Below, one piece after another: positions 7,321 to 20,773 of a stretch of DNA of 35,719 nucleotides. The notes under the pieces were generated by a model, which worked only from the letters and a program-made list of their open reading frames with translations, ran no database searches and was not told where the DNA came from. Positions within the stretch are counted from its first letter, which is position 1. Each line of letters starts with the position of its first letter. The position numbers and the translations under genes are program-made. The stretch lies in contig JAUWMQ010000012.1 of assembly GCA_030613065.1 (NCBI GenBank), positions 1 to 35,719 of the forward strand, written 5' to 3'. Origin of the DNA: Candidatus Aegiribacteria sp. GTDB lineage: Bacteria > Fermentibacterota > Fermentibacteria > Fermentibacterales > JCC-6.

Positions 7321-7557
7321 ATGGCGAAAAAGAACAAAGCTGCTTCTGAAGTTATCGATCAGAAGGAGAGTACAGAGGGTGCAGCTCCATTTACACTTGT
7401 AAATTATATCCTGTTTGCTGCCGGGCTGCTTGATATTATCATCGGATGGTTCCTCCTCCGTGGGGGACGTATCACCATTGCCCCTGTCATGCTGATTGCA
7501 GGATACTGCGTAATCATTCCTCTTGCTATCGTATTCAGAAAAAAGCAACCTGAGTGA
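7321..7557 (+). CDS. Small two-helix membrane protein (DUF3098-like)
   Basis: 78 residues: a charged N-terminus, then two hydrophobic helices (about 27-46 and 52-71) separated by GGRITIAP, and a short basic tail ending RKKQPE. GGAGGT at 7307-7312 lies 8 nt before the ATG. The size, the NYILF...G opening of helix one and the short glycine turn resemble DUF3098 proteins of the Bacteroidetes group; this is an impression, not a search result. Function unknown. Its stop overlaps the GTG start of the next lipoprotein gene by 4 bp, so the two are translationally coupled. Confidence 0.8.
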   Translation: MAKKNKAASEVIDQKESTEGAAPFTLVNYILFAAGLLDIIIGWFLLRGGRITIAPVMLIAGYCVIIPLAIVFRKKQPE

Positions 7558-8303
7558 AATACATATTCACTGCACTTCCCCTTATTCTGCTCCTCGCCTG
7601 TGGCAACAGCGAAGAGCAGGTATTCAGACCAGACCCAATTCCATTAATTGCGCAGGACACAGCCTTCGTTTACGTAACAGGTGGAGTGTTCCTGACCTCT
7701 GACGGAGATACCGTTGAAATATCAGATTTTTATCTGGGGAGGTACGAAGTATCCAACAGACTCTATTGTTATCTGGCCGATGAAAATGCTCTTGAACTGC
7801 CGCCGGATCCCGAATTTTCCGGAATGAACCGTTACCTTTTTGAGTGCCCGGATTATCCTGTGGTAAACGTAAGCGTTAGAGAAGCAGCAGCGGCTGCAGC
7901 AGTATTAGGAGGAAGACTTCCCACAAGGTCCGAGTGGGAATACGCCGCATCACTGGGCGTATCAGGGGATGTCGCCGGGCAGTATCCATGGGGTTCTCTC
8001 AACCCTGAGGACGCGGAATATCCTGCAAACTTCCTGGCTGGAGATGAGTGGGAGACCAGAGGAATTGATGGCTACTTATGGACAGCCCCTGTTGATTCAT
8101 TCCCTCTGACTAATTCGGGTTTTGCATGCCAGGCGGGTAATGTCGCCGAATGGACCTATTCACCTCTTGATTCGGTATTAGCGGTATGCGGAGGAGCATG
8201 GCTGTCACCTGGTGATGAGATTACAGTTGATGCGGTAAGATACCTGGCTCCGGGTGACCGGGCACGCCACGTCGGCTTCCGTATCCTGCTACCGGGGACG
8301 TAG
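7554..8303 (+). CDS. Formylglycine-generating-enzyme (SUMF1)-fold lipoprotein
   Basis: 249 residues with a lipoprotein signal (LLLLAC, lipidated Cys16). The mature part is an FGE/SUMF1 domain: YVTGGVFLTSDGDTVEISDFYLGRYEVSN, PVVNVSVREAAAAAAVLGGRLPTRSEWEYAAS, CQAGNVAEWTYS, CGGAWLS and HVGFRILL. FGE enzymes convert a sulfatase Cys to formylglycine with a copper-bound cysteine pair; the cysteines here sit in the GFACQAGNV and VCGGAW positions rather than in an evident catalytic pair, so a structural or binding role is likely. GldJ and GldK of gliding/type IX systems are also SUMF1-fold lipoproteins, but I see nothing specific enough to name it so. The last codons (PGT) and the TAG stop are supplied by a REP-like repeat. 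Confidence 0.85.
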   Translation: MKYIFTALPLILLLACGNSEEQVFRPDPIPLIAQDTAFVYVTGGVFLTSDGDTVEISDFYLGRYEVSNRLYCYLADENALELPPDPEFSGMNRYLFECPDYPVVNVSVREAAAAAAVLGGRLPTRSEWEYAASLGVSGDVAGQYPWGSLNPEDAEYPANFLAGDEWETRGIDGYLWTAPVDSFPLTNSGFACQAGNVAEWTYSPLDSVLAVCGGAWLSPGDEITVDAVRYLAPGDRARHVGFRILLPGT

Positions 8304-8362
8304 CACACTTTTTCAACCAATTTGTGCTACCGGGGACGTAGCACACTTTTTCAACCAATTTG
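8287..8362 (+). repeat. Two tandem 38-bp REP-like units
   Basis: Two identical units (8287-8324 and 8325-8362). Each begins TGCTAC, then CGGGGAC, then GTAGCA, giving a perfect 6-bp stem with a 7-nt loop, followed by a CACTTTTTCAACCAATTTG tail. The 31-nt core GGGGACGTA...AATTTG (8294-8324) matches 27 of 31 positions of the repeat at 19513-19543 next to the RAYT transposase gene. Unit one overlaps the 3' end and stop codon of the upstream lipoprotein gene. These are presumably non-autonomous REP elements mobilised by a RAYT. Confidence 0.88.
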
Positions 8363-8422
8363 GCAGTATACAATAAGTGAATTACAATAAAATATAGATT
8401 AGTGTGATTTAAAGGAGTTTCT

Positions 8423-8470
8423 GTGAATAACAGATTTTGCATTTGCTTTACCATATTTATTGGATTCTAA
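8423..8470 (+). pseudogene. Possible 15-codon remnant with good ribosome binding site
   Basis: AAAGGAG (8411-8417) is 5 nt before a GTG at 8423 that opens a 15-residue frame (MNNRFCICFTIFIGF) closed by TAA. The peptide looks like the beginning of a signal peptide. No continuation is obvious in another frame, so it may be a decayed secreted-protein gene or chance. The rest of 8363-8588 shows nothing I can support. Confidence 0.2.
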
Positions 8471-8588
8471 CTTTTATTCCAGCCGGTACGGTTGCGGCTG
8501 TACTATCCGATTAATCGGGTGTATTCCGGGAAGAACTTTGTCCATTCGTAATTGGTGGAAGCATCATTATAAGGCCTGAAATGAGGGA

Positions 8589-8664
8589 TGGTGGGCGAAG
8601 AGGGACTTGAACCCCCGACGTCCTGCTTGTAAGGCAGGCACTCTACCATCTGAGTTATTCGCCC
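8589..8664 (-). tRNA. tRNA-Val (anticodon UAC)
   Basis: On the minus strand the cloverleaf reads acceptor GGGCGAA, D arm ACTC/GAGT, anticodon stem CCTGC/GCAGG with loop CTTACAA (anticodon TAC, reading GUA), variable ACGTC, T arm GGGGG/CCCTC with loop TTCAAGT, acceptor TTCGCCC, discriminator A and an encoded CCA (8589-8591). The mature body is 8592-8664 (73 nt) plus CCA. Confidence 0.96.
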
Positions 8665-8675
8665 ACAAAAATGAT

Positions 8676-8694
8676 GGTTGCAGCTTCTGCAACC
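8676..8694 (-). other. Perfect 8-bp hairpin followed by T-run in the tRNA-Val leader
   Basis: GGTTGCAG / CTGCAACC with a 3-nt loop. Read on the minus strand it is followed by ATCATTTTT and then, after two bases, the tRNA-Val 5' end. It has the form of a small intrinsic terminator, but sits between the candidate tRNA promoter and the tRNA, so it might instead mark 5' leader processing or attenuation. Confidence 0.45.
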
Positions 8695-8700
8695 GGGGAG

Positions 8701-8731
8701 CATATATTGTTTGACGGGTGCTTTCTGTCAA
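8701..8731 (-). promoter_or_regulatory. Candidate sigma-70 promoter for tRNA-Val
   Basis: On the minus strand a perfect TTGACA (8726-8731) is followed by TATATG (8701-8706, 19-nt spacer) or AATATA (8703-8708, 17-nt spacer). The tRNA 5' end lies about 37 bp downstream. The -35 is strong and the -10 weak. Confidence 0.45.
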
Positions 8732-8776
8732 GCACCTCTGGTAATTGGAGCCTGGCATGATTGGAGAATAAGCGTT

Positions 8777-10534
8777 TTGAGCAAAGCAGATAAGAAACCC
8801 GATGGCTGTCCCGGAAGCATTATTCCTTCCGAAAGAAGATCGGTTATTTTCAATGAGCTTCTCGATATGGATAAGTCATGTGAAACCAAGGTTGTCATTA
8901 ACCAGAACGAAGATGATGATCTTGTTCTTGTCGGAGTAGGGGCTGTTGACTGGCCGGGCCTGGCAACTGTTGTACTGAGTGAGCTTCATCACTACGGATG
9001 GAATCTGGATCTTCTGGAAGGCTTTGCACTAAATACTGATGGTATTCGAAGAGGATTTATAATAACAGGAATCAGAGATGAGAATTCAAGTCGGCGGGAT
9101 GAATTCGTTGCGGATGCCGGCAAAATGGCTGATCTTCTTGCCAACCTTGCAAAGGGGCGTGCGGGAACAGTATCTCTACTGTCAAGGGCAGCTGAAAGGC
9201 TTGAAAAATTTGAAGAGGTACGGACCGCCTTAGAAATACTGTATGGTGATAAGATGGTGCCGCCGGGTATTCTCGCGGAAGAGGGAGAACTCGTTCTTTT
9301 CATTTCATCAAGGTCTGACGAGTACCTTGCTGAGAGAAAAGCAATTGACCTTGCCTGGATAATAAAGACGAATTTCCAGCTTGTTAACATGGTCAGGACA
9401 AGCGCGGGAAAACCCCAGTTCGCCATCAAGAACCTTCAAACATCAAGGGAACATCTGACAGGCATAAACATTGCAGGTTTTGAAAGGGACATTTCGTTTC
9501 AGAACTGTGTAACCGCACTCACACACGCGTGGTATGGAGCTTCCATACGCCATCAGAGACGATATACGACGCGTGATGGTATCATCTCCATAAGAATAGA
9601 GATGACCGGACCCAGCGGTTTGAGTGCAACCAGAGCTGAACAGATAATTGTACGAAGGAGTCTGAAGAAACTTCTGGTTGCTCATGAACTGGAAAAACTG
9701 AAAAGGATCTACAGGTATGGAGGGGGGGAGCATTACGCAAGAGCTCTGATCCCCCTGCTGAAGAAAGAATGCGAAACAACAGGTCTCAATCAGGCGTATA
9801 TAGCCATAGTCTCTTCAACAACGTTCCAGGCACAGCTGAAACTTGTTCTTGTTACGAGTCAGCTTGACATGAATACGCACGATACAAAAATCATCGATCT
9901 GGTAGGCTCGGTAAACGGTATGAAAGGTCTTACCGTGGTATCGTTCAGATCTCCCTCTAACTACAGCAATATCTGGGTGGATCTTCTAAGCGTAACCATT
10001 GAGCGGGAAGATTTCGCTGAAATGGAAGACGCTTACAGAGACATAAAGCTGGCTATCGAAGAAAACTTTGGTCAGTTCAGAGATTTTGACAGAGGGATGA
10101 GACTTAACGATGTGAAGCAGCTGAATGAAATTAGGTCCGAGCTGAACGAGATCCCTGATAGCGTTATAACAGATTTCTATTACCATATTGAGGATTTTCT
10201 AAGGGCCAGTATTTCAGTGCACGAACTGTCTCAGCATATCAGGCTTGTTTACGATTCAATATCTTTGTTTCATGCAAAAAGTGGGGCATCGGAGAATCCG
10301 TGTTCACAGAACGTATTGGAGGGTGAGAGAAAGGTAGCGACTCTGATCTGCTTTGTGTGCGAAAATGAAGCGGTTGCATTCCAGCATCTTCTTGAAGCGG
10401 TAAAGGATTACACAGTAAATGTAAGTATTATCGAATGGGCAGGTGTGTCCGCCATTCTCTTCAGATTACAGAAAAGCGGCAAGGGACTTGCCGATGAAGA
10501 ACTTGTTGATGTGATCGGAAAACTGAAAGCTTAG
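8777..10534 (+). CDS. Large protein of unknown function with an N-terminal ACT-like region
   Basis: 585 residues from the TTG at 8777 (GGAG at 8763-8766, 10 nt upstream); the frame stays open upstream to 8678 but that part runs over the tRNA leader and reads as non-coding. The region about 50-95 (LVGVGAVDWPGLATVVLSEL, then HYGWNLDLLEGFALNTDGI) has the order of an ACT domain, as in GlnD or serine/homoserine regulators, ending with a beta strand GFIITGI. The rest is mixed alpha/beta, without transmembrane segments or a catalytic motif I recognise. Segments about 230-330 and 370-480 may be further ligand-binding folds, with strands such as GIISIRIEMTGPSG and QLKLVLVTSQLD. It is soluble and presumably cytoplasmic. 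It stands alone between two tRNA genes, so context gives no function. The single TTG start is uncertain; the ATG near 8867 would also keep the ACT-like part. Confidence 0.72.
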   Translation: MSKADKKPDGCPGSIIPSERRSVIFNELLDMDKSCETKVVINQNEDDDLVLVGVGAVDWPGLATVVLSELHHYGWNLDLLEGFALNTDGIRRGFIITGIRDENSSRRDEFVADAGKMADLLANLAKGRAGTVSLLSRAAERLEKFEEVRTALEILYGDKMVPPGILAEEGELVLFISSRSDEYLAERKAIDLAWIIKTNFQLVNMVRTSAGKPQFAIKNLQTSREHLTGINIAGFERDISFQNCVTALTHAWYGASIRHQRRYTTRDGIISIRIEMTGPSGLSATRAEQIIVRRSLKKLLVAHELEKLKRIYRYGGGEHYARALIPLLKKECETTGLNQAYIAIVSSTTFQAQLKLVLVTSQLDMNTHDTKIIDLVGSVNGMKGLTVVSFRSPSNYSNIWVDLLSVTIEREDFAEMEDAYRDIKLAIEENFGQFRDFDRGMRLNDVKQLNEIRSELNEIPDSVITDFYYHIEDFLRASISVHELSQHIRLVYDSISLFHAKSGASENPCSQNVLEGERKVATLICFVCENEAVAFQHLLEAVKDYTVNVSIIEWAGVSAILFRLQKSGKGLADEELVDVIGKLKA

Positions 10535-10557
10535 AACGAAGAACAGCATTAAGTATC

Positions 10558-10586
10558 TTGACAGTTCGTCCAAGTAATTCTATTTT
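10558..10586 (+). promoter_or_regulatory. Sigma-70-type promoter of tRNA-Met
   Basis: TTGACA (10558-10563), a 17-nt spacer, then TATTTT (10581-10586). The expected start site is about 10593, just before the tRNA 5' end at 10597. It lies in the short gap after the unknown 585-residue gene. Confidence 0.7.
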
Positions 10587-10596
10587 CCTCATCCCT

Positions 10597-10672
10597 GGCG
10601 GTGTAGCTCAGTTGGCAGAGCAGCGGAATCATAATCCGCGGGTCGGGGGTTCAAGTCCCTCCGCCGCTACCA
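10597..10672 (+). tRNA. tRNA-Met (anticodon CAU, elongator type)
   Basis: Acceptor GGCGGTG/CGCCGCT (first pair G-U), D arm GCTC/GAGC, anticodon stem GCGGA/TCCGC with loop ATCATAA (CAT), T arm GGGGG/CCCTC, discriminator A and an encoded CCA. The paired first base and the anticodon stem without three G-C pairs argue against initiator tRNA. A lysidine-modified tRNA-Ile2 shares the CAT anticodon, but the anticodon arm resembles elongator Met. Confidence 0.93.
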
Positions 10673-10677
10673 GAATT

Positions 10678-10713
10678 TTGCCGCGGGTGCAGTAACCTGC
10701 GGCAATTTTCTTT
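10678..10713 (+). terminator. Intrinsic terminator after tRNA-Met
   Basis: An 11-bp stem TTGCCGCGGGT / ACCTGCGGCAA (one G-U pair) with a 6-nt loop GCAGTA is followed by TTTTCTTT. It begins 5 bp after the tRNA CCA end and lies just before the convergent permease gene's 3' end. Confidence 0.88.
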
Positions 10714-10719
10714 AGTCGG

Positions 10720-12582
10720 CTAATCCACTCTTCTTCTTTTAGTCAGGAGTACTAGATCTCTCAGCTCATTGATATTGCGGCATTTCAGCCATTGCGAGTC
10801 GAAATCAGGAGCACTTGTGATTTCCGCAATTGCCATCAGCGCACGAAGATGAAAAGTTCTTTCATCCCTTGACCCTGCGAGAACAAAAATCATCCTTACC
10901 GGTGAATTCTCCCCACCGAAATCAATGCCCTCTCTGCATCTGGCCAGAAGGACGGAAAATCTATCTGAATCGGGAACGATGATATGCGGTATTGCAAGCC
11001 CCTTTCTAAGGGCAGTGGAAGACTCCTCCTCCCTCTCAATCAGGAGTCTCTCGATTTCATTTCTTTCAAGAGAAAGGGACTCCTCCAGATTTTCAGAGGC
11101 CATCCTGAAGAAATCTTTCATTCCAGTTGATTCATCGATATCCAGTATTACCGCTTTTATAACGAGGTCGTCGAATCTGTCTTCGGTTATGTGATCCCGA
11201 TCCCTGAGAACCTGTGCCAGTTCCCTTACCAGGCCATCTTTAACCAGTTCCCTTGGAAAAATTCTTGCAGTAAGATTCAGCAGTGCATATTCCCTCTTGG
11301 CCCTCTTCCTGGAGTACATGAAATACCAGATGGTTCCTCCGATAATGACCAGCAGGCTGGCAGTAAGTGCAGACTGGCCAAGTTTCGCAAGAAGAACCAG
11401 CATGCCTGCAATGCCCAGAAGCTGAATCCAGGGGTATCCGGGGCTTCTGAATATGGGTTTGTACGTATGTATACGGCTTTCGCGCATTACTATCAGAGAT
11501 ATATTAACAAACAGAAATAGAATGAGCATCATCGTTGATGCGAGCTTCACCAGATGGGTGAAATCAAGCAGGAGCAGAAGGATAATAATTACACCTGTCA
11601 GAAGCTGGGAAACCCATGGGACACCCTTCTTCCTCGAAATCCTTGATAGGCCTATTGGAAGCAGATCATCCCTGCTCATTGCAAAGGGGAATCTGGCCGA
11701 AGCCAGGATTCCAGCATTGGCTGTTGAAAGAAATGCCAGTACAGCTGCAATACTCATTACCGTCAGGCCTGTTCTGCCTGCGATTACACTGGCAGCTTCG
11801 GAGATGGGCATACCGGTTGAAGATAGAACGGAAGGGTCGAGAACACCCACACAAATGAGCACCGATACGAAGTAGAAGATCGTTACCACGCCCAGAGCGA
11901 GGAACATGCTGGCTGGAAGGTCACGCCCAGGTCGTTTTACCTCCTCCGATACACTTGTTATCTTCGTCAGACCACCGAAGGACACAAACACAAGCGCTGC
12001 CCCTGCCAGGATTCCATTAAAGCCATTTGGCGCTATGGGTCTGAACCGTTCGGGGGAAAAGTGCGTTAAGCCGAATCCGGCGAAAAGAGTCAGAGCTATT
12101 AAAAGCCCGGCAACCAGTACTATCTGAGTTTTTCCAGCGTGTCCTGTACCTCTGAGATTAACAGCTGTAAAGACAGCGCAGGATATCATTGCGAAAAGCC
12201 TGCCGTTGATCTCGGGAGATAGAAACTCCATGAATATTCCGAGACCGACAAATGCAAAAGCGGTCTTGACTGAAAGAGAGAACCAGGCTGCCAGCCCGGA
12301 AAGGGTCCCGGCAAGGGGTCCAAGAGACCTGTCAATGAAGTAGTAGGTTCCCCCTGCCCTTGGCATTGCAGTTGCAAGCTCTGCCTTGCTGAGCATGGTT
12401 GGAATCGTGAGAATTCCTGCTATGAGGTACGAGAATACCACGCCTGGACCCGCCACGGTATAGGCCAGTGCCGGCAGAACAAAAAGCCCTGAGCTTATCA
12501 TTGAGCCTGCTGCAATCGCGAAAAGAGAAGGAATCCCGAGATCCCGGGAAAGGCTGCCATTCTTTTCACTTCGGTGATGCAT
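10720..12582 (-). CDS. APC-family amino acid permease with C-terminal PTS EIIA type-2 domain
   Basis: 620 residues. Residues about 10-430 are an APC-superfamily transporter with about 12 hydrophobic helices; it opens with GSMISSGLFVLP, the family's helix-1 substrate motif, and carries SVSEEVKRPGRDLP in the usual cytoplasmic loop. After helix 12 and a basic stretch (YSRKRAKREYALL), the C-terminal 150 residues are a PTS_EIIA_2 (PtsN/fructose-type) domain: LLIEREEESSTALRKGLAIPH, then RCREGIDFGGENSPVRMIFVLAG and HLRALMAIAEI. His533 in GLAIPH aligns with the phosphorylated histidine of EIIA. The likely role is amino acid uptake controlled by phosphorylation or a nitrogen-PTS-like signal; substrate unknown. 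GGGGG precedes the ATG by 6 nt. The gene diverges from tilS and converges on tRNA-Met. Confidence 0.87.
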   Translation of the reverse strand: MHHRSEKNGSLSRDLGIPSLFAIAAGSMISSGLFVLPALAYTVAGPGVVFSYLIAGILTIPTMLSKAELATAMPRAGGTYYFIDRSLGPLAGTLSGLAAWFSLSVKTAFAFVGLGIFMEFLSPEINGRLFAMISCAVFTAVNLRGTGHAGKTQIVLVAGLLIALTLFAGFGLTHFSPERFRPIAPNGFNGILAGAALVFVSFGGLTKITSVSEEVKRPGRDLPASMFLALGVVTIFYFVSVLICVGVLDPSVLSSTGMPISEAASVIAGRTGLTVMSIAAVLAFLSTANAGILASARFPFAMSRDDLLPIGLSRISRKKGVPWVSQLLTGVIIILLLLLDFTHLVKLASTMMLILFLFVNISLIVMRESRIHTYKPIFRSPGYPWIQLLGIAGMLVLLAKLGQSALTASLLVIIGGTIWYFMYSRKRAKREYALLNLTARIFPRELVKDGLVRELAQVLRDRDHITEDRFDDLVIKAVILDIDESTGMKDFFRMASENLEESLSLERNEIERLLIEREEESSTALRKGLAIPHIIVPDSDRFSVLLARCREGIDFGGENSPVRMIFVLAGSRDERTFHLRALMAIAEITSAPDFDSQWLKCRNINELRDLVLLTKRRRVD

Positions 12583-12672
12583 TCGCTACCCCCTGAAAGC
12601 ATTATTATCTTTTGCAGACATCAAGTCCACCTCAAACTTGGTGTTCATGTATATTACTGTAAAGGGGGATAC

Positions 12673-13641
12673 GTGAGTTTTCACCGATCTTTCGAGAATA
12701 CTTTCATCGAAACAGTCAAACTCAGGAATTTGCTTCCCTGCGGTTCAGAGATTCTGGCAGCCGTTTCAGGCGGGAGTGATTCTGTTGCACTGCTGCAGCT
12801 TCTCTACCGGTTTGCCAACCATATGGATTGGAAATTGGCTGTCCTCCATATTGATCACTGTGCCAGACCCGGGAGTGGTGAAGATGCCCTTTTTGTAAAG
12901 GATCTTGCAGAAGGAATCGGTCTGCAATGTAATATTGAGAAAACCTCACCACCTGGATCTGGATCTCCCGAAGGGCACTTCAGTGCCGAAAGGAACAGGA
13001 TTTACACAGAATACGCTTTGGAGCAAATTCTTGTAACTACTGGACATACGGCATCTGACAGAGCAGAGACACTAATAATGAGACTGCTTGAAGGGTCCGG
13101 GCTCAGGGGCCTGGGGGGTATGGATTACTTCGGCCGGGGATCCGTTCGCAGACCGTTGCTGGATTTCACCCGGAGTGAGCTTCGCGAATACCTTGATACA
13201 ATCGGACAGAACTGGATTGAAGATCCGACGAACCAGGAAGATTTGTATCTCAGGAACAGAATCCGCCACAGCGTTATTCCTGTGCTTGAATCCGTATCAC
13301 CTGGAAGCACCTTCGCTATTGCCAGATCTTCAGCGAATCTATCGCAGTGGAGGGATTTTACAGACAGTATTATTGATGATTCTCTTGACGAGCTTCTTGA
13401 TGGAGATACATTCCGGAGAGAGGAGTATTTGAATCTGCCGAGAGCAGTAAGGCTGGGAATTCTCTGGGCTGTGAGTGGCCGACCCAGGAGCGGAAAACTG
13501 GAAATAGAGAAAACCGACAGATGGATTCTAGGGAAAAAGGACGGATATCATATTCTTCCCGGTGGTACGACAATTACCGCTGAAGGGGGCAGCATCCGTA
13601 TCCGAAAATCCGTAAAAAGAGCGGGAAAGGTGGAAAATTGA
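12673..13641 (+). CDS. tilS: tRNA(Ile)-lysidine synthetase TilS
   Basis: 322 residues. PP-loop ATPase with SGGSDS at 32-37, LHIDHCARPGSGEDALFV, the LEQILVTTGHTASDRAETLIMRLLEGSGLRGLGG segment and RNRIRHSVIPVL, all TilS hallmarks. It converts C34 of the CAU-anticodon tRNA-Ile2 to lysidine. The C-terminal substrate-binding part is short (from about residue 225), making this a compact TilS. The frame opens at 12574, but the GTG at 12673 with AAAGGGGG 5-6 nt upstream matches where the family normally begins. tilS-hpt-ftsH is a widely conserved order. Its stop overlaps the hpt start (TTGA). Confidence 0.92.
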   Translation: MSFHRSFENTFIETVKLRNLLPCGSEILAAVSGGSDSVALLQLLYRFANHMDWKLAVLHIDHCARPGSGEDALFVKDLAEGIGLQCNIEKTSPPGSGSPEGHFSAERNRIYTEYALEQILVTTGHTASDRAETLIMRLLEGSGLRGLGGMDYFGRGSVRRPLLDFTRSELREYLDTIGQNWIEDPTNQEDLYLRNRIRHSVIPVLESVSPGSTFAIARSSANLSQWRDFTDSIIDDSLDELLDGDTFRREEYLNLPRAVRLGILWAVSGRPRSGKLEIEKTDRWILGKKDGYHILPGGTTITAEGGSIRIRKSVKRAGKVEN

Positions 13642-14165
13642 AAAGTAATGATTGGGACGTGCTTTTCTCTTCTGCTCACATTCAGGAAGGTATTCGAAAG
13701 CTCGGGGCGGAGCTTACAGAAATTTATACAGATAAAAGGATCGTTGTTATTCCGCTTCTCAGGGGTGGCTTTATGTTTGCTGCTGACCTTGTCCGGAGCA
13801 TGGAGGTTGATCTGCAGATCGAGTTCCTTGGTGCGGCAAGCTACGGGGAGCAGACAAAATCGTCAGGAGAAGTCCGTCTTACTCTTGATACGACCCTTCC
13901 TCTGTCAGGCCGGGATGTCCTGCTGGTGGAGGATATTGTAGACACAGGACTTACACTGGCGTATATTCAGCAGCTGATTAAATCAAGAAACCCGGCCTCT
14001 TTTCGCACGGTTGTACTGCTTGATAAGGAAGCCAGGCGGCAGGTTGATGTAGATGTATATAAATCCGTATTCTGCATTCCGGACAGATTCGTATTCGGGT
14101 ACGGACTGGATAGTCCCGGGGGATTTGGTCGCAATCTTCCCGATATCGTAGTACTTAAGGATTGA
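13638..14165 (+). CDS. hpt: Hypoxanthine (guanine) phosphoribosyltransferase
   Basis: 175 residues, normal length. The PRPP-binding motif VLLVEDIVDTGLTL is clear, with the earlier VVIPLLRGGFMFAADL and the flexible-loop region GAASYGEQTKSSGEV, and the base-binding VFGYGLD near the C-terminus. It makes IMP or GMP from hypoxanthine or guanine plus PRPP, complementing the fused purine nucleoside phosphorylase upstream. It starts at a TTG overlapping the tilS stop, with GGTGG about 5 nt upstream. Confidence 0.94.
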   Translation: MKSNDWDVLFSSAHIQEGIRKLGAELTEIYTDKRIVVIPLLRGGFMFAADLVRSMEVDLQIEFLGAASYGEQTKSSGEVRLTLDTTLPLSGRDVLLVEDIVDTGLTLAYIQQLIKSRNPASFRTVVLLDKEARRQVDVDVYKSVFCIPDRFVFGYGLDSPGGFGRNLPDIVVLKD

Positions 14166-14181
14166 AAAAACCAGGAGTTTC

Positions 14182-16218
14182 ATGAACAAAGATGATAAAC
14201 GACCACCGGGCAAATTGCCTCTGCAGCCATTAACTTCAGGATGTTCTGTTAAAACACTTACAATGTGGCTGCTCATGGCTCTGATAGCGTTCACAGTATT
14301 TCGGGTTTTCGACACTGGGACTGACAGCATCGAAATACCGTACTCCGGTTCTTCCGGTCTGATGGATTACATCAGCCGGGGTAGAGTGGAATCAGTCGTC
14401 ATAGAAACCGGCGGATCAATTACCGGGGAATTCTCTATCCCGGTTGTTAAGGATGAGGTTGAATACAGCAGGTTCGTAAGCTTCATCCCGTTTGAGAATA
14501 CCGGTGTGCTTGATTCACTGGCTGCTTACGATGTGCTGGTAACAGCCAAACCTCCAAATGAACTGCTTGCGCAGGTACTTTCCTTTATTCCTTTCCTGCT
14601 TCTAATAGGTTTCTTTATCTATTTCATGAGAAGGGCTGGAGGGGGCGGCAAGGCTTTCTCATTCGGGAAAAGCAGAGCCAGACTCTTTTCCAGCGACAAA
14701 CCTCAGGTTACCTTTGAGGATGTGGCCGGAGTAGACGAGGCAAAAGCCGAACTGCTCGAAGTGATTGAATTCCTCAATAAGCCTGACAAGTTCCGTCGTC
14801 TGGGTGGAAAAGTTCCCAAAGGCGTACTGCTGGTCGGCAGACCCGGAACAGGTAAAACTCTTCTTGCAAAAGCTGTTGCGGGTGAAGCAAAGGTTCCATT
14901 CTATTCAATGAGCGGCTCCGATTTTGTAGAAATGTTTGTGGGAGTAGGCGCCAGCAGGGTCAGAGACCTTTTTGTACAGGGAAAAGCCAAGGCGCCCTGC
15001 ATTATTTTCATCGATGAGATCGATGCGGTTGGAAGACACAGGGGATCCGGGATCGGAGGTGGGCACGACGAAAGGGAACAGACCCTCAATGCCCTTCTTG
15101 TAGAGATGGACGGCTTCGAGGAAAATGCAGGGGTAATTGTTATGGCAGCAACAAACCGCCCCGATGTACTTGATCCTGCACTTCTGCGTCCGGGCAGATT
15201 TGATCGCCGGATTGTCGTTAGCATGCCTGATGTTAAGGGCCGGGAGGCCATACTTAAAGTACATACACGCAAAATGCCGGTTAATGCGAATGTCAGCCTT
15301 GAAAAGGTTGCACGGAGTACTCCTGGTTTCAGCGGCGCAGACCTTGAAAGCCTGGCCAATGAGGCAGCTCTAAGGGCGGCAAGACGTGGTGCAAAGAAAG
15401 TCGAACAGGAAGATTTCGACTATGCGATTGACCGTATCATACTCGGTCTGGAACGCAAGAGTATCGTTATCAGCCCCGACCAGAAGAAGTGCACAGCCTA
15501 CCACGAGAGTGGACATGCGGTAGTTGGCATATTTATCCCAGAATCGGATCCGATACACAAAATCACAATAGTCCCCAGAGGAATGGCTATGGGTGTGACC
15601 AGTTTCCTTCCATCCGATGACCGATACTCCTATACCGAAAAGAAGCTTGTCAGTATGCTCGCCACACTGATGGGGGGAAGGGCTTCTGAAATTCTCTTCC
15701 TTGATACTCTGAGCACCGGTGCTGGGAATGATCTGGAAAAGGCAACCGAACTAGCGAGGAAAATGGTCTGTGAGTGGGGAATGAGCAAGGAACTCGGTCC
15801 TGTCTCACACTCAGATTCGGGAGACATGATCTTCCTTGGAAGGGAATTTAACAAGACCAGGGATTACAGTGAGCATACAGCCAGGGTAATAGATTCAGAG
15901 GTTAAGAGGATCATTGAGGAAGCGAGCGATGTAGCACTTGAAATACTGAATAACAACCGGGACATCGTAGAAAGATTAGCAGAACAGCTTCTGGAAAAGG
16001 AAACGATTTCAAGCAGCGAGATAAACAGCATATTCGGGGAACTGCGCCCTGATATGGGTCCTATACCCTCCATTCAAACCATTTCAGAGATTAAGGAAAC
16101 AACCGATTCTTCCGATGATGATCCTGAACAAGAAGAGGAAGTCCGTGAAAATGATGGATCTGAAGAAAATAGAGCAGGGAGTGAGGCTGATGCTGGAGGG
16201 AGTGGGGGAGAATCCTGA
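14182..16218 (+). CDS. ftsH: ATP-dependent membrane zinc protease FtsH
   Basis: 678 residues. Transmembrane helices about 28-47 and 130-148 flank a short extracytoplasmic domain. The AAA domain has Walker A GRPGTGKT (219-226), Walker [11 protein letters not shown] and the second region of homology with [20 protein letters not shown]. The M41 zinc site is H441-E442-S-G-H445 with the third ligand near Asp517 (GAGNDLEKA). It degrades misassembled membrane proteins and short-lived regulators as a hexamer. Walker A has Arg where Pro is usual (GPPGTGKT). The tail of about 35 residues is very acidic and Gly/Ser-rich, and its DNA overlaps the folE start by 74 bp. AGGAG lies 4 nt before the ATG. Confidence 0.96.
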
Positions 16219-16723
16219 CAGAGAAGGTCTGAAGGAGACTCCTTACCGCGTATCCAAGTCAATGGCTGAGTTGTGCCGAGGTCTGAACCCCGATGAGATC
16301 GTGCCCGTCAAGACCATGTCCTGTAAAGGTCAGAACGAAATGATCATAGTGAAGGACATCAGTTTTTCATCCATGTGCGAACATCATCTGCTTCCCTTCA
16401 TCGGCAGGTGTGATGTTGTCTATCTTCCCGCGAACGATCGAATAGCAGGATTGTCATCGATAGTTGAGATGGTTGAAATCATGGCTGCAAGGCCGACAAT
16501 TCAGGAGAGGCTTACCACCGAAATAGCCGATAGACTTATGGCAGAACTATCTGCTAAGGGCGTCATGGTCGTGATGGAAGCTGAGCATATGTGCCTCGCA
16601 ATGCGCGGTGTAAAGAAACGTGATTCTAGGATAGTCACATCAGCCATGCGCGGCTACCTGAAGAAGCTTGAAACAAGAACCGAAGCACTATCCCTAATTG
16701 GAAGAGCGATAAGAGTCACCTGA
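16145..16723 (+). CDS. folE: GTP cyclohydrolase I FolE
   Basis: 192 residues from GTG 16145; ATG 16151 and ATG 16154 are close alternatives. GAGG at 16135-16138 is 6 nt before the GTG, which tips the choice. Motifs: [16 protein letters not shown], the zinc and active-site SMCEHHLLPF, YLPANDRIAGLS, and CLAMRGVKK with the second zinc-binding cysteine. It converts GTP to dihydroneopterin triphosphate, the first step of folate synthesis. The 5' end lies within the acidic tail of ftsH in another frame, so the two are coupled; the stop overlaps folP (TGATG). Confidence 0.94.
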   Translation: MKMMDLKKIEQGVRLMLEGVGENPDREGLKETPYRVSKSMAELCRGLNPDEIVPVKTMSCKGQNEMIIVKDISFSSMCEHHLLPFIGRCDVVYLPANDRIAGLSSIVEMVEIMAARPTIQERLTTEIADRLMAELSAKGVMVVMEAEHMCLAMRGVKKRDSRIVTSAMRGYLKKLETRTEALSLIGRAIRVT

Positions 16724-17919
16724 TGAGAATCAGGAGACTCCATATTTCAAGCGATGATCAATGGCGTGGAGAACTGAGTTCCATAGGTGCGGATCCTGTC
16801 ACCTGGGATAGGTTGTCAAAAAAATGCAGAATATCCATTTTTTCTACAGGATTATTACCAGTAACTGCGGCGAATATTCTTAAGCAATGCATGCTTTCCG
16901 GAGGAGCGGACGCAATTGTATCCAGAGATGCGGTTTCCTGCAGAACAATTGAGACCAGAGCGCTGATCGTGGGAACCTCAAAGCAGATAAAGCGCGGGTG
17001 CGAATCACTTATTGGACAGCCGTTTGGACTCCCTGAACTTGCACTTGAACTCAGAACTGCTCTGGAAGATTTGCCGCGTTTACCTGAATTGATCCAGACC
17101 CGCGGCAAAGTGCTTGATTTCAGCAGACGGCCGCTTGTAATGGGTATTCTGAATGTGACTGCCGATTCTTTCAGCGACGGCGGGAAATATCTGGATACCA
17201 ATGCAGCGGTTGAACATGCAAGAATTATGACGAGTCAGGGAGCCGATATAATAGATATCGGGGCGGAGTCCACCAGACCAGGTTCACCGCCTGTTCCTCC
17301 TGCCATTCAGCTTGAACGACTGCTTCCCATTGTGAAAAGGCTTTCAGGTGACTGCAGGGCTGTTATATCCGTTGATACAGCCAGCGCGGAGGTTGCTGAT
17401 TCCGTTCTCTCGGCAGGGGCTGAGATGATAAACGATGTAACTGCTTTGTCCGACCCGGCAATGCCGCATGTAGTAGCGAATGCGGATATTCCGGTGGTTC
17501 TGATGCATATGCAGGGAAAACCTGAGACAATGCAGGATAATCCGGGATATACTGATGTGGTGGAAGAAGTCTACACATTTTTGCAGAAAAGAATCACGGC
17601 AGCAGCTGCGTCGGGGATATCAAGAGAGCGCATTATCGTTGACCCGGGTATTGGCTTCGGCAAAAGACTCGAGGATAACCTGCAGCTTATCTCCAGACTG
17701 GCAGAATTCAAATGGCTGGGCTGCAGAGTTCTTCTTGGACACTCAAGGAAGAGTTTTCTCGCGAAGCTGACCGGAATCGATAATCCTTCAGCACTTGAAG
17801 CTGGTACGCATGCAGTGACTGCACTATCTTCCAGCTGTGCGGATATCGTCAGGGTTCATGATGTTGAAGGAACGATGCAGGTTCTCAAAACCTCCAGGGA
17901 GTTTGGACAGAGAATATGA
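16723..17919 (+). CDS. folP: Dihydropteroate synthase FolP with N-terminal extension
   Basis: 398 residues. The DHPS TIM barrel starts near residue 135: VMGILNVTADSFSDGG, IDIGAESTRPGS, ISVDTASAEVA, MINDVTALSD, VLMHMQGKPETMQ, IIVDPGIGFGK and LLGHSRKSF, with the closing VRVHDVEGT. All pterin- and pABA-binding motifs are present, so it should condense p-aminobenzoate with the pterin. About 125 residues precede the barrel, whereas ordinary bacterial DHPS is about 280 residues in all; the extension has no motif I recognise. The gene starts 1 bp within the folE stop and overlaps cdaA by 4 bp. Confidence 0.93.
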   Translation: MRIRRLHISSDDQWRGELSSIGADPVTWDRLSKKCRISIFSTGLLPVTAANILKQCMLSGGADAIVSRDAVSCRTIETRALIVGTSKQIKRGCESLIGQPFGLPELALELRTALEDLPRLPELIQTRGKVLDFSRRPLVMGILNVTADSFSDGGKYLDTNAAVEHARIMTSQGADIIDIGAESTRPGSPPVPPAIQLERLLPIVKRLSGDCRAVISVDTASAEVADSVLSAGAEMINDVTALSDPAMPHVVANADIPVVLMHMQGKPETMQDNPGYTDVVEEVYTFLQKRITAAAASGISRERIIVDPGIGFGKRLEDNLQLISRLAEFKWLGCRVLLGHSRKSFLAKLTGIDNPSALEAGTHAVTALSSSCADIVRVHDVEGTMQVLKTSREFGQRI

Positions 17920-18725
17920 TGATCCAGCCACTGGGACACTCTATCATAAGTGGCTTCTGGCTTGCACAGCTGGCAAACATCACAATCATCGCCATCATGG
18001 TTAGAATGCTGCTGAAGTATCTCTGGAGAACTCCTGCAATGCCTGTAATCCTGATGTTCATGATCATTATTCTGCTTGCGAACATTCTTGGAAAAGTAGG
18101 ATTTTATACATTCGGTTATCTGCTTCAGCAACTGACACCGATTCTGTTCATTGCCGTGGTGCTTATCTTCCATGAAGAAATCAAGGATCTGCTCGGCACA
18201 ATGGGACGTAAACTGAGAAGATTCTCTGGGCATGCTGATATTATTGAGCAAAGCGAGATTGAATCACTTGTTGAATCTTGTGTGCTTTTAAGAGAGTCCG
18301 GGCTTGGAGGACTCTTCGTAATGGAAAGAGAGGAATCTCTTGAAAATATCTATGGTGATCCCGTGATACTTGATAAACTCAAGATCGACCCTCGTGTCGT
18401 TGCCTCACTCCTTCAGCCCCCTGGAGTTCTCCATGACGGTGCCATCATTATAAGCAATGGACGTATTGTCGGAGCCAGGGCAATCCTGCCTCTTTCGCGC
18501 AAAACTTTCTTTGGAAGGTCCAGGGCGAATAAACCCCGGCCGGCACTTGGAACACGTCACAGAGCGGCTATTGGAGTAACAGAGATTTCCGATGCGATAG
18601 CTGTTGTAGTAAGTGAGGAAACAGGAAATTTCAGCATTGCCCATGATGGAATTCTCGAAGAAGCCATTGTGCTGGATGAGCTTGGCAAAAGACTGGTAGA
18701 GCTTACTTCGGAAAGAGAAAAGTAG
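17916..18725 (+). CDS. cdaA: Diadenylate cyclase CdaA (c-di-AMP synthase)
   Basis: 269 residues. Three N-terminal hydrophobic helices (about 13-95) and a DisA_N/DAC catalytic domain with DGA at 174-176 (GVLHDGAIII) and RHR at 214-216 (GTRHRAAIG), the residues that bind ATP and metal. It makes cyclic di-AMP at the membrane, which controls potassium and turgor homeostasis and the cell wall. It follows folP, a common arrangement in the Bacteroidetes group. The usual partner cdaR is not found downstream; a polyprenyl-synthase-like gene occupies that place. Confidence 0.95.
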   Translation: MMIQPLGHSIISGFWLAQLANITIIAIMVRMLLKYLWRTPAMPVILMFMIIILLANILGKVGFYTFGYLLQQLTPILFIAVVLIFHEEIKDLLGTMGRKLRRFSGHADIIEQSEIESLVESCVLLRESGLGGLFVMEREESLENIYGDPVILDKLKIDPRVVASLLQPPGVLHDGAIIISNGRIVGARAILPLSRKTFFGRSRANKPRPALGTRHRAAIGVTEISDAIAVVVSEETGNFSIAHDGILEEAIVLDELGKRLVELTSEREK

Positions 18726-18730
18726 TAACC

Positions 18731-19513
18731 GTGCTTGATAAGCTCAAGCAGGAACTTGTAGATACTGCTCACACAGTTATCAGTAAATCTGCACAGAAGA
18801 TGCCCGGAGCTTTCCAGTATGCCTTGCATTCATGTATTGAGCATAATTACAATCTTGAACTGAGCCTTCTCGCCTGCGCCTCATCCAGGTGGTGCGGCTC
18901 AACCGAGTATGCGGGCATGCCTGCCGCAGTTGCAGCTCTCATGCTTCGCGCAGGCATCACTGTTCATCTTGAAACAAGTGGTTTTACCGATATTTTCAAT
19001 AGATTACCGCAATTGCTGGATGAGAGGGATGACACGCTGGCAATACTGGCCGGTGACGGGCTTATTGCGCTTGCTATTGAGTATCTGGCGGGCAATGGCG
19101 GTATGCATGCCTCAAGATTGGTTTCGGAAGCTGTTAAGGCTGTGGGAGCCGGTGGGATGCTTGCAGGATTATCCCTGGAGGTTGATCGTGCAGATGGATT
19201 TGAGACAGAAGTCCCCGATGGACGGTCTCTTTCGGAACTGTACAGTGGTCAACTGGCCAGGTTCGCTTCCCACGGCGGAGCTCTTCTCGCAGGAGCATCG
19301 GATATGATGCTTGATGATGCGGCACAGATAGGTGTACTCACTGGAAGGGCAAAGTTTCTTGTGAGGAAGGCTGAATCCAGTAAAGACAGGAATGAGATAA
19401 GGGACCTCGATTTTCAGGCCAGGACTTTAATTGAACTTGCAGAGACAATAGCAGGCCACAAGCCAAACGCTGCATTATTCAACTCAATAATGTATTTATC
19501 AGACTTCATCTAG
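18731..19513 (+). CDS. Polyprenyl synthetase-like protein lacking the catalytic DDxxD motif
   Basis: 260 residues, probably all alpha-helical. The middle and end follow the isoprenyl diphosphate synthase layout: a LELSLLACASSRW helix, MPAAVAALMLRAG, the very typical ILAGDGLIALAIEYLA (IspA: ILAGDALLTLAFELLA), AGGMLAGLSLEVD (GMVGGQ...D) and LSELYSGQLARFASHGGALLAGAS (KTGALI...GALLAGA). Where the first aspartate-rich motif should be, the sequence reads HLETSGFTDIFNRLP; the second is replaced by MMLDDAAQIG. Catalysis is therefore doubtful, and a regulatory or scaffold role is an inference. It starts at GTG 18731, 5 bp after cdaA, with only a weak AG-rich ribosome site. Its TAG stop directly abuts a REP-like repeat. 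Confidence 0.7.
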   Translation: MLDKLKQELVDTAHTVISKSAQKMPGAFQYALHSCIEHNYNLELSLLACASSRWCGSTEYAGMPAAVAALMLRAGITVHLETSGFTDIFNRLPQLLDERDDTLAILAGDGLIALAIEYLAGNGGMHASRLVSEAVKAVGAGGMLAGLSLEVDRADGFETEVPDGRSLSELYSGQLARFASHGGALLAGASDMMLDDAAQIGVLTGRAKFLVRKAESSKDRNEIRDLDFQARTLIELAETIAGHKPNAALFNSIMYLSDFI

Positions 19514-19543
19514 GGGACGTACCACAGTTCTTCAACAAATTTG
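19513..19543 (+). repeat. REP-like repeat, left end of RAYT locus
   Basis: GGGGACGTACCACAGTTCTT continues with CAACAAATTTG; 27 of 31 positions equal the unit at 8294-8324. It begins directly at the last base of the upstream TAG stop codon. Confidence 0.85.
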
Positions 19544-19662
19544 CCTAGATATCAGCTATATTAAGATTATATCTACTAAAATAGTCATTTTATATTAATA
19601 TATTATAATAACAAATTTTCACACTTGAAACATGTCGCGAATATGCGTACACTATCAGTATT

Positions 19663-20700
19663 ATGAGTAGATCAAACAGGTTGGACTGGATAAGTGCGGT
19701 GCACCATGTCATGGCAAGGGGCATAGAGAGAAGAACTTTATTCAAAGATGATAAAGACAAAGCACAGTTTGTTTCTCGTATTGAGAAATGCGTCGCCGAA
19801 ACAGGAGTATCGATATATGCTTGGGCATTGATGCCCAATCATATACACTTCCTAATCCAAACCAGGAAGATGCCCCTTTCGAAATTCATGCAGAAGCTTC
19901 TTACAGGCCATGCAAATTATTTCAATATAAAATATGATCGAGTCGGACACCTTTTTCAGAATCGCTACAAATCGATTCTCGTTCAGGCTGAGATATACAT
20001 GCTCAAACTCATACGATACATTCACATGAATCCATTGACAGCAGGAGAGGTAAGTGATTTCAAAACGCTCAAAATGTATCCCTGGACGGGGCATCCAGGA
20101 TTAATCTATCCCGGTTATTATCCATGGCAGGAAACCGCTCAAATACTGAATACGTTTTCCGGAAATAAAACGAACAAAATTAAACAATATGCGCAATTTA
20201 TTGAAGAACCTGAGGAAACTGTCTATCAGGATGGAAGATTCGATGAAGGATCCTTTCTTCTTGGTGCAAATGGGTTACTCAGTCTGGAAGAATCAAGAGA
20301 AGAAATCAGGGGATACTCTCAGTATAGAATACTTGGAGAGATGGATTTTGCTCGAAGTATTTACAATCAAGTCAATCGCACGTCTAAAGATCATCTGAGG
20401 GATCGTAGATTTGAACATGAATCGGTAGAGAAGATACTGAAATACGTTCAAGATAAATGGTTGATAAGTGAAAGAGTACTTACTTCAAAAGGACGAACCA
20501 GATCGCTATCCCGAGCGAGAGAATTAGTCAGCTATGTGTTTGTAAATATCATTGGTATGAGTCTTGTGGATTCCGGTAGAATTTTGAACCTCAGTTGCCA
20601 GGGAGTTCGCGCTGCTGCAGCTAGGTTCCTCCCGGAATATGATTTCAATTCCGAGATAAATAAGATTCTTTCTGACAATACGGATACCAAGATATTCTGA
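19663..20700 (+). CDS. REP-associated tyrosine transposase (RAYT, Y1/HUH family)
   Basis: 345 residues. The Y1 transposase domain (about 1-150) starts with HHVMARGIERRTLFKDD, carries the HUH metal motif in MPNHIHFLI, then GHLFQNRYKS, and ends with the catalytic tyrosine in IRYIHMNPLTAGEV. This is the single-strand DNA nuclease/strand transferase of the IS200/IS605 superfamily. The C-terminal half (about 230-330) contains a DnaA-like helix-turn-helix region (LSRARELVSYVFVNIIGMSL, then RILNLSCQGVRAAAARF), common in longer RAYT proteins. All catalytic residues are present, so it may be functional. It has no obvious ribosome site and is flanked by inverted REP-like repeats, with two further units 11 kb upstream. 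Codon use is more AT-rich than neighbours. Confidence 0.92.
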   Translation: MSRSNRLDWISAVHHVMARGIERRTLFKDDKDKAQFVSRIEKCVAETGVSIYAWALMPNHIHFLIQTRKMPLSKFMQKLLTGHANYFNIKYDRVGHLFQNRYKSILVQAEIYMLKLIRYIHMNPLTAGEVSDFKTLKMYPWTGHPGLIYPGYYPWQETAQILNTFSGNKTNKIKQYAQFIEEPEETVYQDGRFDEGSFLLGANGLLSLEESREEIRGYSQYRILGEMDFARSIYNQVNRTSKDHLRDRRFEHESVEKILKYVQDKWLISERVLTSKGRTRSLSRARELVSYVFVNIIGMSLVDSGRILNLSCQGVRAAAARFLPEYDFNSEINKILSDNTDTKIF

Positions 20701-20750
20701 GTTACAATGTAGAAATTAGTATATTGAAAAGAGTATAAAATCACCTATAA

Positions 20751-20773
20751 GTTGATGAAGTGTGGTACGTCCC
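20751..20773 (-). repeat. REP-like repeat, right end of RAYT locus (inverted)
   Basis: On the minus strand it reads GGGACGTACCACACTTCATC then AAC, and begins immediately after the priA TAA stop. It matches the left-end copy at 21 of 23 positions. Confidence 0.83.

Follow-up and report, generated by a model that had tools for sequence, protein, structure and literature searches.

Terminal inverted repeats of a TIRYT-type transposase element lie, mostly in sense, at the 3' ends of genes in Candidatus Aegiribacteria

In Candidatus Aegiribacteria, a family of short repeats sits at gene 3' ends, mostly in the sense orientation and with its outer GGGG end first, and often gives the gene its stop codon. 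Those in the window (the whole stretch of 35,719 nt analyzed here) belong to a Y1/HUH transposase element and its derivatives, of which they form the terminal inverted repeats (TIRs). The features are as follows.

7554..8303, + strand: FGE-sulfatase-domain ORF (Pfam PF03781, E 4.4e-24), with its final codons and TAG stop (8301-8303) inside repeat unit 1
8287..8362, + strand: 38-nt tandem duplication, two copies, each made of 7 nt of upstream flank (TGCTACC) and a repeat unit
8294..8317, + strand: TIR copy, unit 1 of the tandem, G-type, providing the TAG
8332..8355, + strand: TIR copy, unit 2 of the tandem
8295-8307 (+), 8333-8345 (+), 19514-19526 (+) and 20761-20773 (-): the cores, GGGACGTA[G/C]CACA
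18731..19513, + strand: polyprenyl-synthase-like ORF, whose stop TAG (19511-19513) adjoins the left TIR
19513-20773: TIRYT-type transposase element, whole
19514..19536, + strand: left TIR of the element; the G at 19513 is common to TIR and stop codon
19663..20700, + strand: Y1/HUH transposase of TIRYT (RAYT-like) type with a DnaA-domain-IV-like C-terminal helix-turn-helix (HTH)
20751..20773, - strand: right TIR of the element, sense to priA
20774..23182, - strand: priA, whose stop TAA adjoins the right TIR, directly beside GGGACGTACC

The earlier note had reported four copies of one sequence here, and all four cores were located. The window holds five matches to the core at up to 2 mismatches, a number reached by none of 100 dinucleotide shuffles (mean 0.74, largest 3). 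In the genome itself, the 23-nt core at up to 3 mismatches occurs 16 times and its backwards control not once. Chance was rejected as the source of the repeats and their placement by these two comparisons and by random positions (below). The ORF coordinates confirm that the FGE-like stop lies inside a unit and that the stops of priA and the polyprenyl-synthase-like ORF (no Pfam match; weak NCBIfam matches under their cut-offs) adjoin the repeat. Two details were corrected: the TAG ending at 19513 does adjoin the repeat, but its own G doubles as the fourth of GGGG, and repeats do stand at stops in three loci, but the second tandem unit (8333) is not at a stop and belongs to the 38-nt duplication.

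The transposase matches Pfam Y1_Tnp with 53.1 bits (cut-off 23) and carries an HIH motif at residues 60-62 and a catalytic Tyr at 119; H60, H62 and Y119 are invariant in an alignment of 21 members, all of which contain PF01797. Bac_DnaA_C was found in the window protein with 27.2 bits (E 4e-06), under the cut-off of 31.5, and at E<=0.01 in 14 of the 21 members. In the closest group, to which the window belongs, all 14 loci (L250-L263) have the transposase enclosed by TIRs. TIR pairs are 19-49 nt long in 31 of 34 matched transposase loci (23 nt in the window), no clear pair being found in L264, L271 and L278; L032 was unmatched. The earlier description of the repeats as REP-like was not supported, since two single copies folded no better than their shuffles (z = +0.57 and +1.00), and classical REPs were rejected for want of a hairpin in these folded copies; the TIRs of one paralogue (L034) are palindromic. 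The window repeats also have no GT[AG]G-headed palindrome, as RAYT-linked GTAG REPs do, and the protein scores 62.6 bits against the NCBIfam equivalog REP_Tyr_transpos, below the cut-off of 80. An IS200/IS605 insertion sequence was rejected as well: those elements are without TIRs according to PMC2817692, TIRs are present here, and NF033573 is matched with 21.6 bits against an equivalog cut-off of 55.

The closest known kind is instead the TIRYT/TIRtron (Di Nocera et al., 2013; PMC3733652), subclass 2.1 of TnpA_REP in Quentin et al. (2018; PMC6006769). As far as the excerpts of these papers describe them, such elements share with ours a Y1 HUH transposase with a DnaA_C or HTH C-terminus, GGGG-starting TIRs unrelated to REPs, and the dispersal of TIRs as singles, dimers and clusters. 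Their published motif in these excerpts, GGGGWSAS, applies to some TIRYTs; here the TIRs are mostly GGGG[A/T/C]CG, and that of the window, GGGGACGT, fits GGGGWS and not AS.

We then looked at placement in 155 copies, 16 from the genome itself and 139 from relatives (of at least 146 places listed), the count leaving aside six places of G012, one 3-mismatch place of G013 and about 20 in G016-G018 and G031. Genes were called with an in-house codon-score ORF finder rather than a standard gene caller, and four places where the contig end cuts the neighbor gene (L038, L041+, L045-, L118) were scored as misses. A sense-strand stop lies within 25 nt of the outer end in 90/155 copies, and an opposite-strand stop is nearby in only 5. 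The earlier note had held that copies without enrichment at stops, or in random orientation, would speak against it; both enrichment and sense bias are seen, and in this respect it is not refuted. One could argue that insertion is random and that only copies at 3' ends escape selection, as the fetched loci are dense in genes (coding fraction 0.88) with short spacers. Yet random intergenic positions give a mean of 12.1 copies near a sense stop (max 24 in 200 draws) and random positions anywhere 3.5 (max 10), against the 90 observed, and the 90 to 5 strand ratio adds to this, which makes such passive survival very improbable.

After merging by orthology, 31 of 37 loci lie at CDS or tRNA 3' ends, a count that single-linkage may have over-merged. 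The other six lie at no called 3' end, and 7 genomes share one of these six, which lies in a divergent spacer. There are 46 copies with no sense stop between -45 and +62, and 13 of these come after a tRNA or a terminator-like hairpin. By class, the 155 copies comprise 102 singles, 33 dimer arms and 20 transposase arms or long-spaced copies; short tandem clusters occur too. Among copies that have a sense stop between -130 and +70, the stop is within 9 nt in 4/17 dimer arms vs 52/80 singles, and such a stop is missing from 16 of the 33 dimer arms and 22 of the 102 singles. The median distance in the 17 dimer arms is 19 nt. Of the transposase-arm class, 18/20 arms are within 9 nt of a stop, although these largely represent one ancestral locus. 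Thus the suggestion that the element targets translation ends was not upheld: because some copies follow tRNAs and hairpins and dimer arms lie off the stops, insertion seems to take place in the 3' spacer of the gene, fusion to the stop coming later.

As for the idea that the repeat may supply 3' ends to genes, the repeats do provide stop codons. Base 9 is G in 24/31 of the copies that a gene enters in the right frame, so that the repeat gives TAG, compared with G in only 5/124 of the remaining copies (p 2.6e-17); by gene cluster, the G-type is found in 8/14 vs 4/35 (p 0.002). Between orthologues, a native TAG followed by GGGACGTAC in one stands at the same position as TCG or TCA followed by GGGACGTAG in another. 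This stop toggle suggests that selection repairs the damage.

Another TIR family, belonging to a paralogous transposase, is likewise found where genes end and mostly in sense, although this is more weakly shown. In 30 fetched loci among 87 listed places there are 35 distinct copies, 17 of them at sense stops (random mean 2.3, max 6 in 300 draws), with a weaker strand bias (17 sense vs 9 opposite); five copies have an in-frame TAA at +14.

Individual sites give a closer view. At a gene for a 473-aa Wzi-like protein, native post-stop bases precede the repeat in G000 (TAAACGGCAG followed by GGGACG), as in the empty sites of G016, G012 and G007, while in G003, G002 and G009 these bases are gone and TAG runs directly into GGGG; presence and absence here are not called gain or loss with confidence, since support in the four-protein species tree is low at this point (nodes of 60-78). 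Next to an isocitrate/isopropylmalate-dehydrogenase-family gene, G003, G014 and G007 have a TIR dimer or its remnant, and the same place holds a strong hairpin in G016 (folded) and a similar one in G002 (by eye), the latter not listed by the consensus terminator scan at that locus, as its 9-nt loop exceeds the limit of 8. At rpsD, a dimer exists in G003 only, of 18 genomes. The exact target-site duplication could not be fixed at rpsD, the dehydrogenase gene or FGE, where the empty sites are too diverged for both borders.

The explanation that we prefer, tentatively and with ample room for being wrong, is that the TIRs of the TIRYT element and its non-autonomous copies arrive in 3' spacers as dimers and erode to stop-fused, retained singles. 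The transposase would carry TIR dimers, inverted pairs that can fold into hairpins, to sites where insertion would be least harmful and where a hairpin or single-stranded DNA may lie exposed: short 3' spacers, tRNA trailers and terminator regions. The distal arm would later be lost by deletion, as would the spacer as far as the coding sequence, fusing the gene-proximal TIR to the stop. Where this fusion runs beyond the native stop and the repeat is read as GGG-ACG-TAC, selection would favor a change of C to G (TAC to TAG) and the repeat would become the new stop, and the remaining single cores would be kept by selection or renewed copying. This reading gains from the element anatomy, the placement, the second family, the dimer and single distances, the three sites above and the stop toggle. 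Against it stand the near-intact core, which neutral erosion leaves unexplained, the two ends of the full transposase element directly at stops, the stop-less arms and singles, the six loci off 3' ends and the weaker strand bias of the second family. That dimers are young was only partly borne out: the one at rpsD is lineage-specific, but others are common to at least two genomes (L045/L093, L087/L137, L130/L136 and the dehydrogenase site), which weakens erosion and raises site-directed insertion. In the compared loci no single deletion step within one lineage was caught. Decayed partners (15-19 of 23 positions, within 350 nt) accompany 16/149 copies vs 14 in the reversed-sequence control, so singles are unsupported as dimers with a still-visible partner.

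Site-directed insertion would mean that a transposase coupled to transcript 3' ends puts single TIRs at stops or terminators in one orientation, with no erosion. The coupling envisaged is to a hairpin, a paused polymerase or the non-template single strand. The strong sense bias and closeness to stops fit this, as do the same-orientation copies behind tRNAs and terminator-like hairpins, and at FGE two TIR families occupy the identical codon in different clades while a third clade is empty, which fits targeted insertion too. Bases next to the repeats are weakly biased (to R at -1, to C at -2 and to T at -5), and a clear target motif was rejected. The CT dinucleotide is the cleavage site of E. 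coli TnpA_REP; it is absent from the twelve strongest dinucleotide-position biases in the repeat flanks. With this weak motif, dimer arms mostly away from the stop itself and singles shifted by up to 17 nt between orthologues, we consider site-directed insertion rather unlikely.

Core conservation raises another alternative, that the sense TIR is an RNA-level 3'-end signal under purifying selection and that mobility is merely its source. Termination, processing and ribosome release are the roles that were named for such a signal. Between orthologous sites of 11 gene clusters, core identity is 0.89-1.00 (found by their cores, hence biased to conserved ones), whereas the 40 nt alongside reach 0.49-0.63 and fourfold sites 0.39-0.78. 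Among loci found by protein, window-family copies have at most one mismatch in 9/11 cases at FGE and 11/12 at the 473-aa gene, and these cores are nearly identical between species with synonymous sites near saturation. The TIR dimer in place of a terminator-like hairpin at the dehydrogenase-family site also favors a signal. Yet decayed copies (G012 and G016 at FGE, G013 at the 473-aa gene) and orthologous gene ends without any TIR exist, the single TIR has no stable fold, and renewed copying by the transposase could equally keep cores alike; domestication of this kind is in our view unlikely. A broader possibility, which we regard as doubtful, is that the TIR cores of at least two transposase families are recurrent, orientation-specific 3'-end modules that replace stops and at least one terminator-like hairpin, with families swapping at the same codon and cores near-unchanged while neighboring and most synonymous sites saturate.

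Stop-adjoining repeats have precedents. E. coli REPs lying 15 nt or less from a stop reportedly stall ribosomes, in work by Liang, Rudd and Deutscher in 2015 (reference 17 of PMC12306157); those REPs are palindromic and affect translation, and TIRs here likewise lie directly behind stops, but as singles they have no stable fold. RAYT/GTAG REPs and REPINs are, like our family, transposase-linked non-autonomous repeats, from which the absence of a hairpin in the folded singles and of a GT[AG]G palindrome, and the unreached REP_Tyr_transpos cut-off, set ours apart. In the excerpted texts, RAYT-linked REPs lie near gene 3' ends in several genomes (PMC2817692, PMC3116915, PMC3733652), REP dimers are the likely mobile unit (PMC3116915), and GTAG REP termini often give a TAG stop (PMC3733652), so the claim that no described RAYT/REP system has such a stop placement must be dropped. 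For TIRs, the excerpts of PMC3733652 and PMC6006769 do not report stop placement, orientation, frame-dependent stop supply or junction duplications.

The element type is already known, and REP-like repeats at stop codons had been described before from other bacteria; unusual here is how clearly the placement, its conservation and the adjoining scars can be seen. Empty sites, dimers and stop-fused singles form natural series in which the route of REP-like repeats to stop codons can be studied. Tandem duplications at the junctions begin 6-10 nt outside the TIR (the scan of the second family accepted one fewer matching base than that of the window family). Judged from sequence, they may be footprints, legible in the genome, of the cutting sites of a little-studied class of transposases, and if TIR cores are indeed 3'-end modules, this 6-10 nt offset would mark a transposase cut outside its own TIR.

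The four copies in the window are present as the earlier note described them, by sequence and ORF check. Its name for them, REP-like, had to be given up, since the repeats are the terminal inverted repeats (TIRs) of a TIRYT-type element with a Y1 plus DnaA-like make-up. The window transposase has a Y1 domain, HIH and the catalytic tyrosine, and its C-terminus resembles DnaA domain IV (E 4e-06, yet under the Pfam cut-off), a likeness matched in 14/21 aligned transposase members. In the parts of PMC3733652 and PMC6006769 consulted, published TIRYTs have the same transposase make-up and the TIR motif GGGGWSAS, of which the window TIR fits the first six bases only; on this make-up and partial fit we name the element TIRYT-type and not REP. 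Homologous transposases number up to 9 per genome and most of them (31/34 loci) have their own TIR sequence. In two paralogues, L265 (G016) and L266 (G011), the left TIR begins right where a tRNA-like sequence ends in CCA. A shorter Y1 transposase in the own genome (L034; G000, C150) differs from the window family in having palindromic TIRs (AGGGACGGAGGTAATTA...).

The 23-nt core GGGACGTANCACANTTCTTCAAC gives 16 matches with up to 3 mismatches in the own draft genome G000 (2.81 Mb, containing the window), where the backwards core gives 0. It was found in 17 of the 36 genomes of the family search, namely 16/19 of the genus and, as one single match, another genus. The general form GGGACGBASNNNNNTTYNKCAAS occurs in 20/42 genomes of the phylum, made up of 18 from the genus, G019 and, with one match, G035. 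Variants of the window family also stand at the polyprenyl-synthase-like/priA stops in G004, G001 and G019 (another genus of the same taxonomic family).

Placement was analyzed for 155 copies (139 fetched of the 146 listed relative copies, and 16 own) with gene calls from a simple codon-score gene finder and distances counted from the first G of the repeat. The placement at stops and the sense orientation that the earlier note saw in the window recur genome-wide and in the relatives: a same-strand stop lies within 25 nt in 90/155 copies, against a mean of 12.1 (max 24, 200 draws) for positions drawn at random from the intergenic DNA of these loci and 3.5 (max 10) for draws from anywhere in them, and an opposite-strand stop is near only 5/155. 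After merging by orthology, the sense stop is no further than 25 nt away in 24/37 loci and falls from -45 to +62 in 5/37 more; 2/37 lie behind tRNAs and 6/37 belong to none of the placement classes. A second family, with the TIR GGGGYCGKRCGTNACTTCYGGTYACTT, repeats the enrichment: a sense stop is no more than 25 nt away in 17 of its 35 distinct copies, where 300 random intergenic draws average 2.3 and reach at most 6, and an opposite-strand stop is near in 9/35, so that its strand bias is less clear. An in-frame TAA at +14 is supplied by this TIR itself in 5 copies, and two of the copies lacking a nearby stop follow tRNA genes, at 6 nt from tRNA-Phe and 9 nt from tRNA-Glu.

Is the target then the stop codon, as the earlier note suggested? 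The enrichment stands, but what the repeats occupy is the 3' end of genes and not the stop codon itself. In the window family 46/155 copies have no sense stop from -45 to +62. A same-strand tRNA gene precedes seven of these (L041, L093, L091, L092, L146, L127, L120), and a hairpin and T-run test is positive in 8/46 (including L093, in its tRNA region, and L120, both already tRNA-linked) against 2/109 copies having a nearby stop. Combined, a tRNA or terminator-like hairpin precedes 13/46, and contig ends cut four more. For the others no placement rule was found, including seven orthologous copies (L088, L115, L129, L139, L158, L174, L190) in a spacer between divergent genes, where a tRNA was sought in all seven and an Rfam scan was run on L088, L139, L174 and L190, both with no match. 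A conserved ATAGATACCC(T/C)CAA stretch precedes six of these seven.

Two further features were seen beside the repeats. Copies L091, L092, L120, L143 and L173, behind tRNA or tRNA-like ends, have in common a longer, AGAAGAAACCGCCT-like downstream stretch, perhaps another, longer non-autonomous element. In G003, G007 and G014, GCCA or GATA often stands directly outside the TIR, perhaps through a target preference or because a few bases were carried along.

The dimers (inverted TIR pairs) offer a possible route to the stop. Of 18 genomes compared at rpsD, identified by an NCBIfam match above cut-off, G003 alone carries a dimer, which lies between the stop and a terminator-like hairpin. At an isocitrate/isopropylmalate dehydrogenase-family gene (PF00180) a dimer or remnant is found in G003, G014 and G007, that of G003 folding into a 27-bp hairpin (-46 kcal/mol). 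In G016 the place is taken by another hairpin (-24.9 kcal/mol), and by eye G002 has one resembling it, which the consensus scan missed because its loop is too long. Behind a 473-aa gene (Pfam Caps_assemb_Wzi) the site is empty in G016, G007 and G012; native post-stop bases are kept in front of the repeat in G000, and TAG is fused to it in G003, G002 and G009. When the sense stop of an arm falls between -130 and +70, it is within 9 nt in 4/17 dimer arms vs 52/80 singles, and the 15 copies with a stop beyond +9 are all singles. We infer, mainly from these distances, that dimers would land in the 3' spacer and that later erosion would bring a single TIR to the stop. The comparisons caught no deletion step, and not all dimers are young, as several occur in more than one genome. 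In the same 473-aa gene spacer, L040 and L361 (G000) also contain a TIR from another family, TAGGGCCAGGTCTTGCATTT, which runs in the opposite direction, adjoins the convergent gene and carries a ladder of junction duplications of ~13 nt each.

Exact tandem duplications spanning flank and TIR start occur in 17/155 window-family copies (14 sites including multi-unit tandems, 12 after merging two orthologous pairs), against 5/2837 random positions and 5/293 stops without a repeat, and in 6/35 second-family copies vs 13/1627 in the control. By the spans and periods of the scans, the duplicated block of the window family starts 6-10 nt ahead of the first GGG and that of the second family 6-7 nt ahead of GGGG, and the far border falls 1-12 nt inside the TIR or coincides with the end of the repeat. 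The offset is similar in the two families, which suggests that an enzyme may cut the DNA ~7 nt beyond the TIR.

The proposal that the repeats may supply gene ends is borne out for stop codons. Base 9 is G, giving TAG, in 24/31 copies read in the frame GGG-ACG-TAS vs 5/124 outside it (p 2.6e-17), or 8/14 vs 4/35 with each upstream gene cluster counted once per state (p 0.002). The stop switch is shown by orthologue pairs, in which a native stop before the repeat is set against TCA or TCG read into it: DFI-TAG before GGGACGTAC vs NFF-TCA or DFF-TCG before GGGACGTAG in the polyprenyl-synthase-like gene, and NFF-TAA before GGG vs NFF-TCG before GGGACGTAG in another gene. Read-through yields short protein tails in seven copies in this frame and eight in other frames, and in L090 only the last base of the gene's stop is common with the repeat. 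The FGE-like protein ends RILLPL (G001), RILMPID (G004) or RILLPLNR (G008) without the repeat and RILLP-GT in most repeat-filled genomes.

In 11 upstream-gene clusters (at least 3 genomes each) core identity is 0.89-1.00, against 0.49-0.63 in the next 40 nt and 0.39-0.78 at fourfold sites. Because these loci were picked by the core pattern, the question was repeated on loci found by protein. At the FGE-like gene (19 genomes) 9/11 window-family copies have at most 1 mismatch and the other two are decayed; the TCTG-type variant of the family stands at the stop in five genomes (G006, G010, G013, G017, G018), and three more carry no repeat. For the 473-aa gene, compared over 18 rows of which one is a second, more distant G016 copy, the figures are 11/12 and one decayed, with two rows holding other families and four empty. 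Either selection on the core or its renewed copying could account for this.

The earlier note knew of no system with such placement. Stop supply is already published for GTAG REPs (PMC3733652); for TIRs, our literature search found no account of a sense bias at stops, of a frame-dependent TAC/TAG switch, or of the dimer/single series, core conservation and junction scars. Across this genus, the placement of the repeat at gene 3' ends is a genuine, strong and general pattern.
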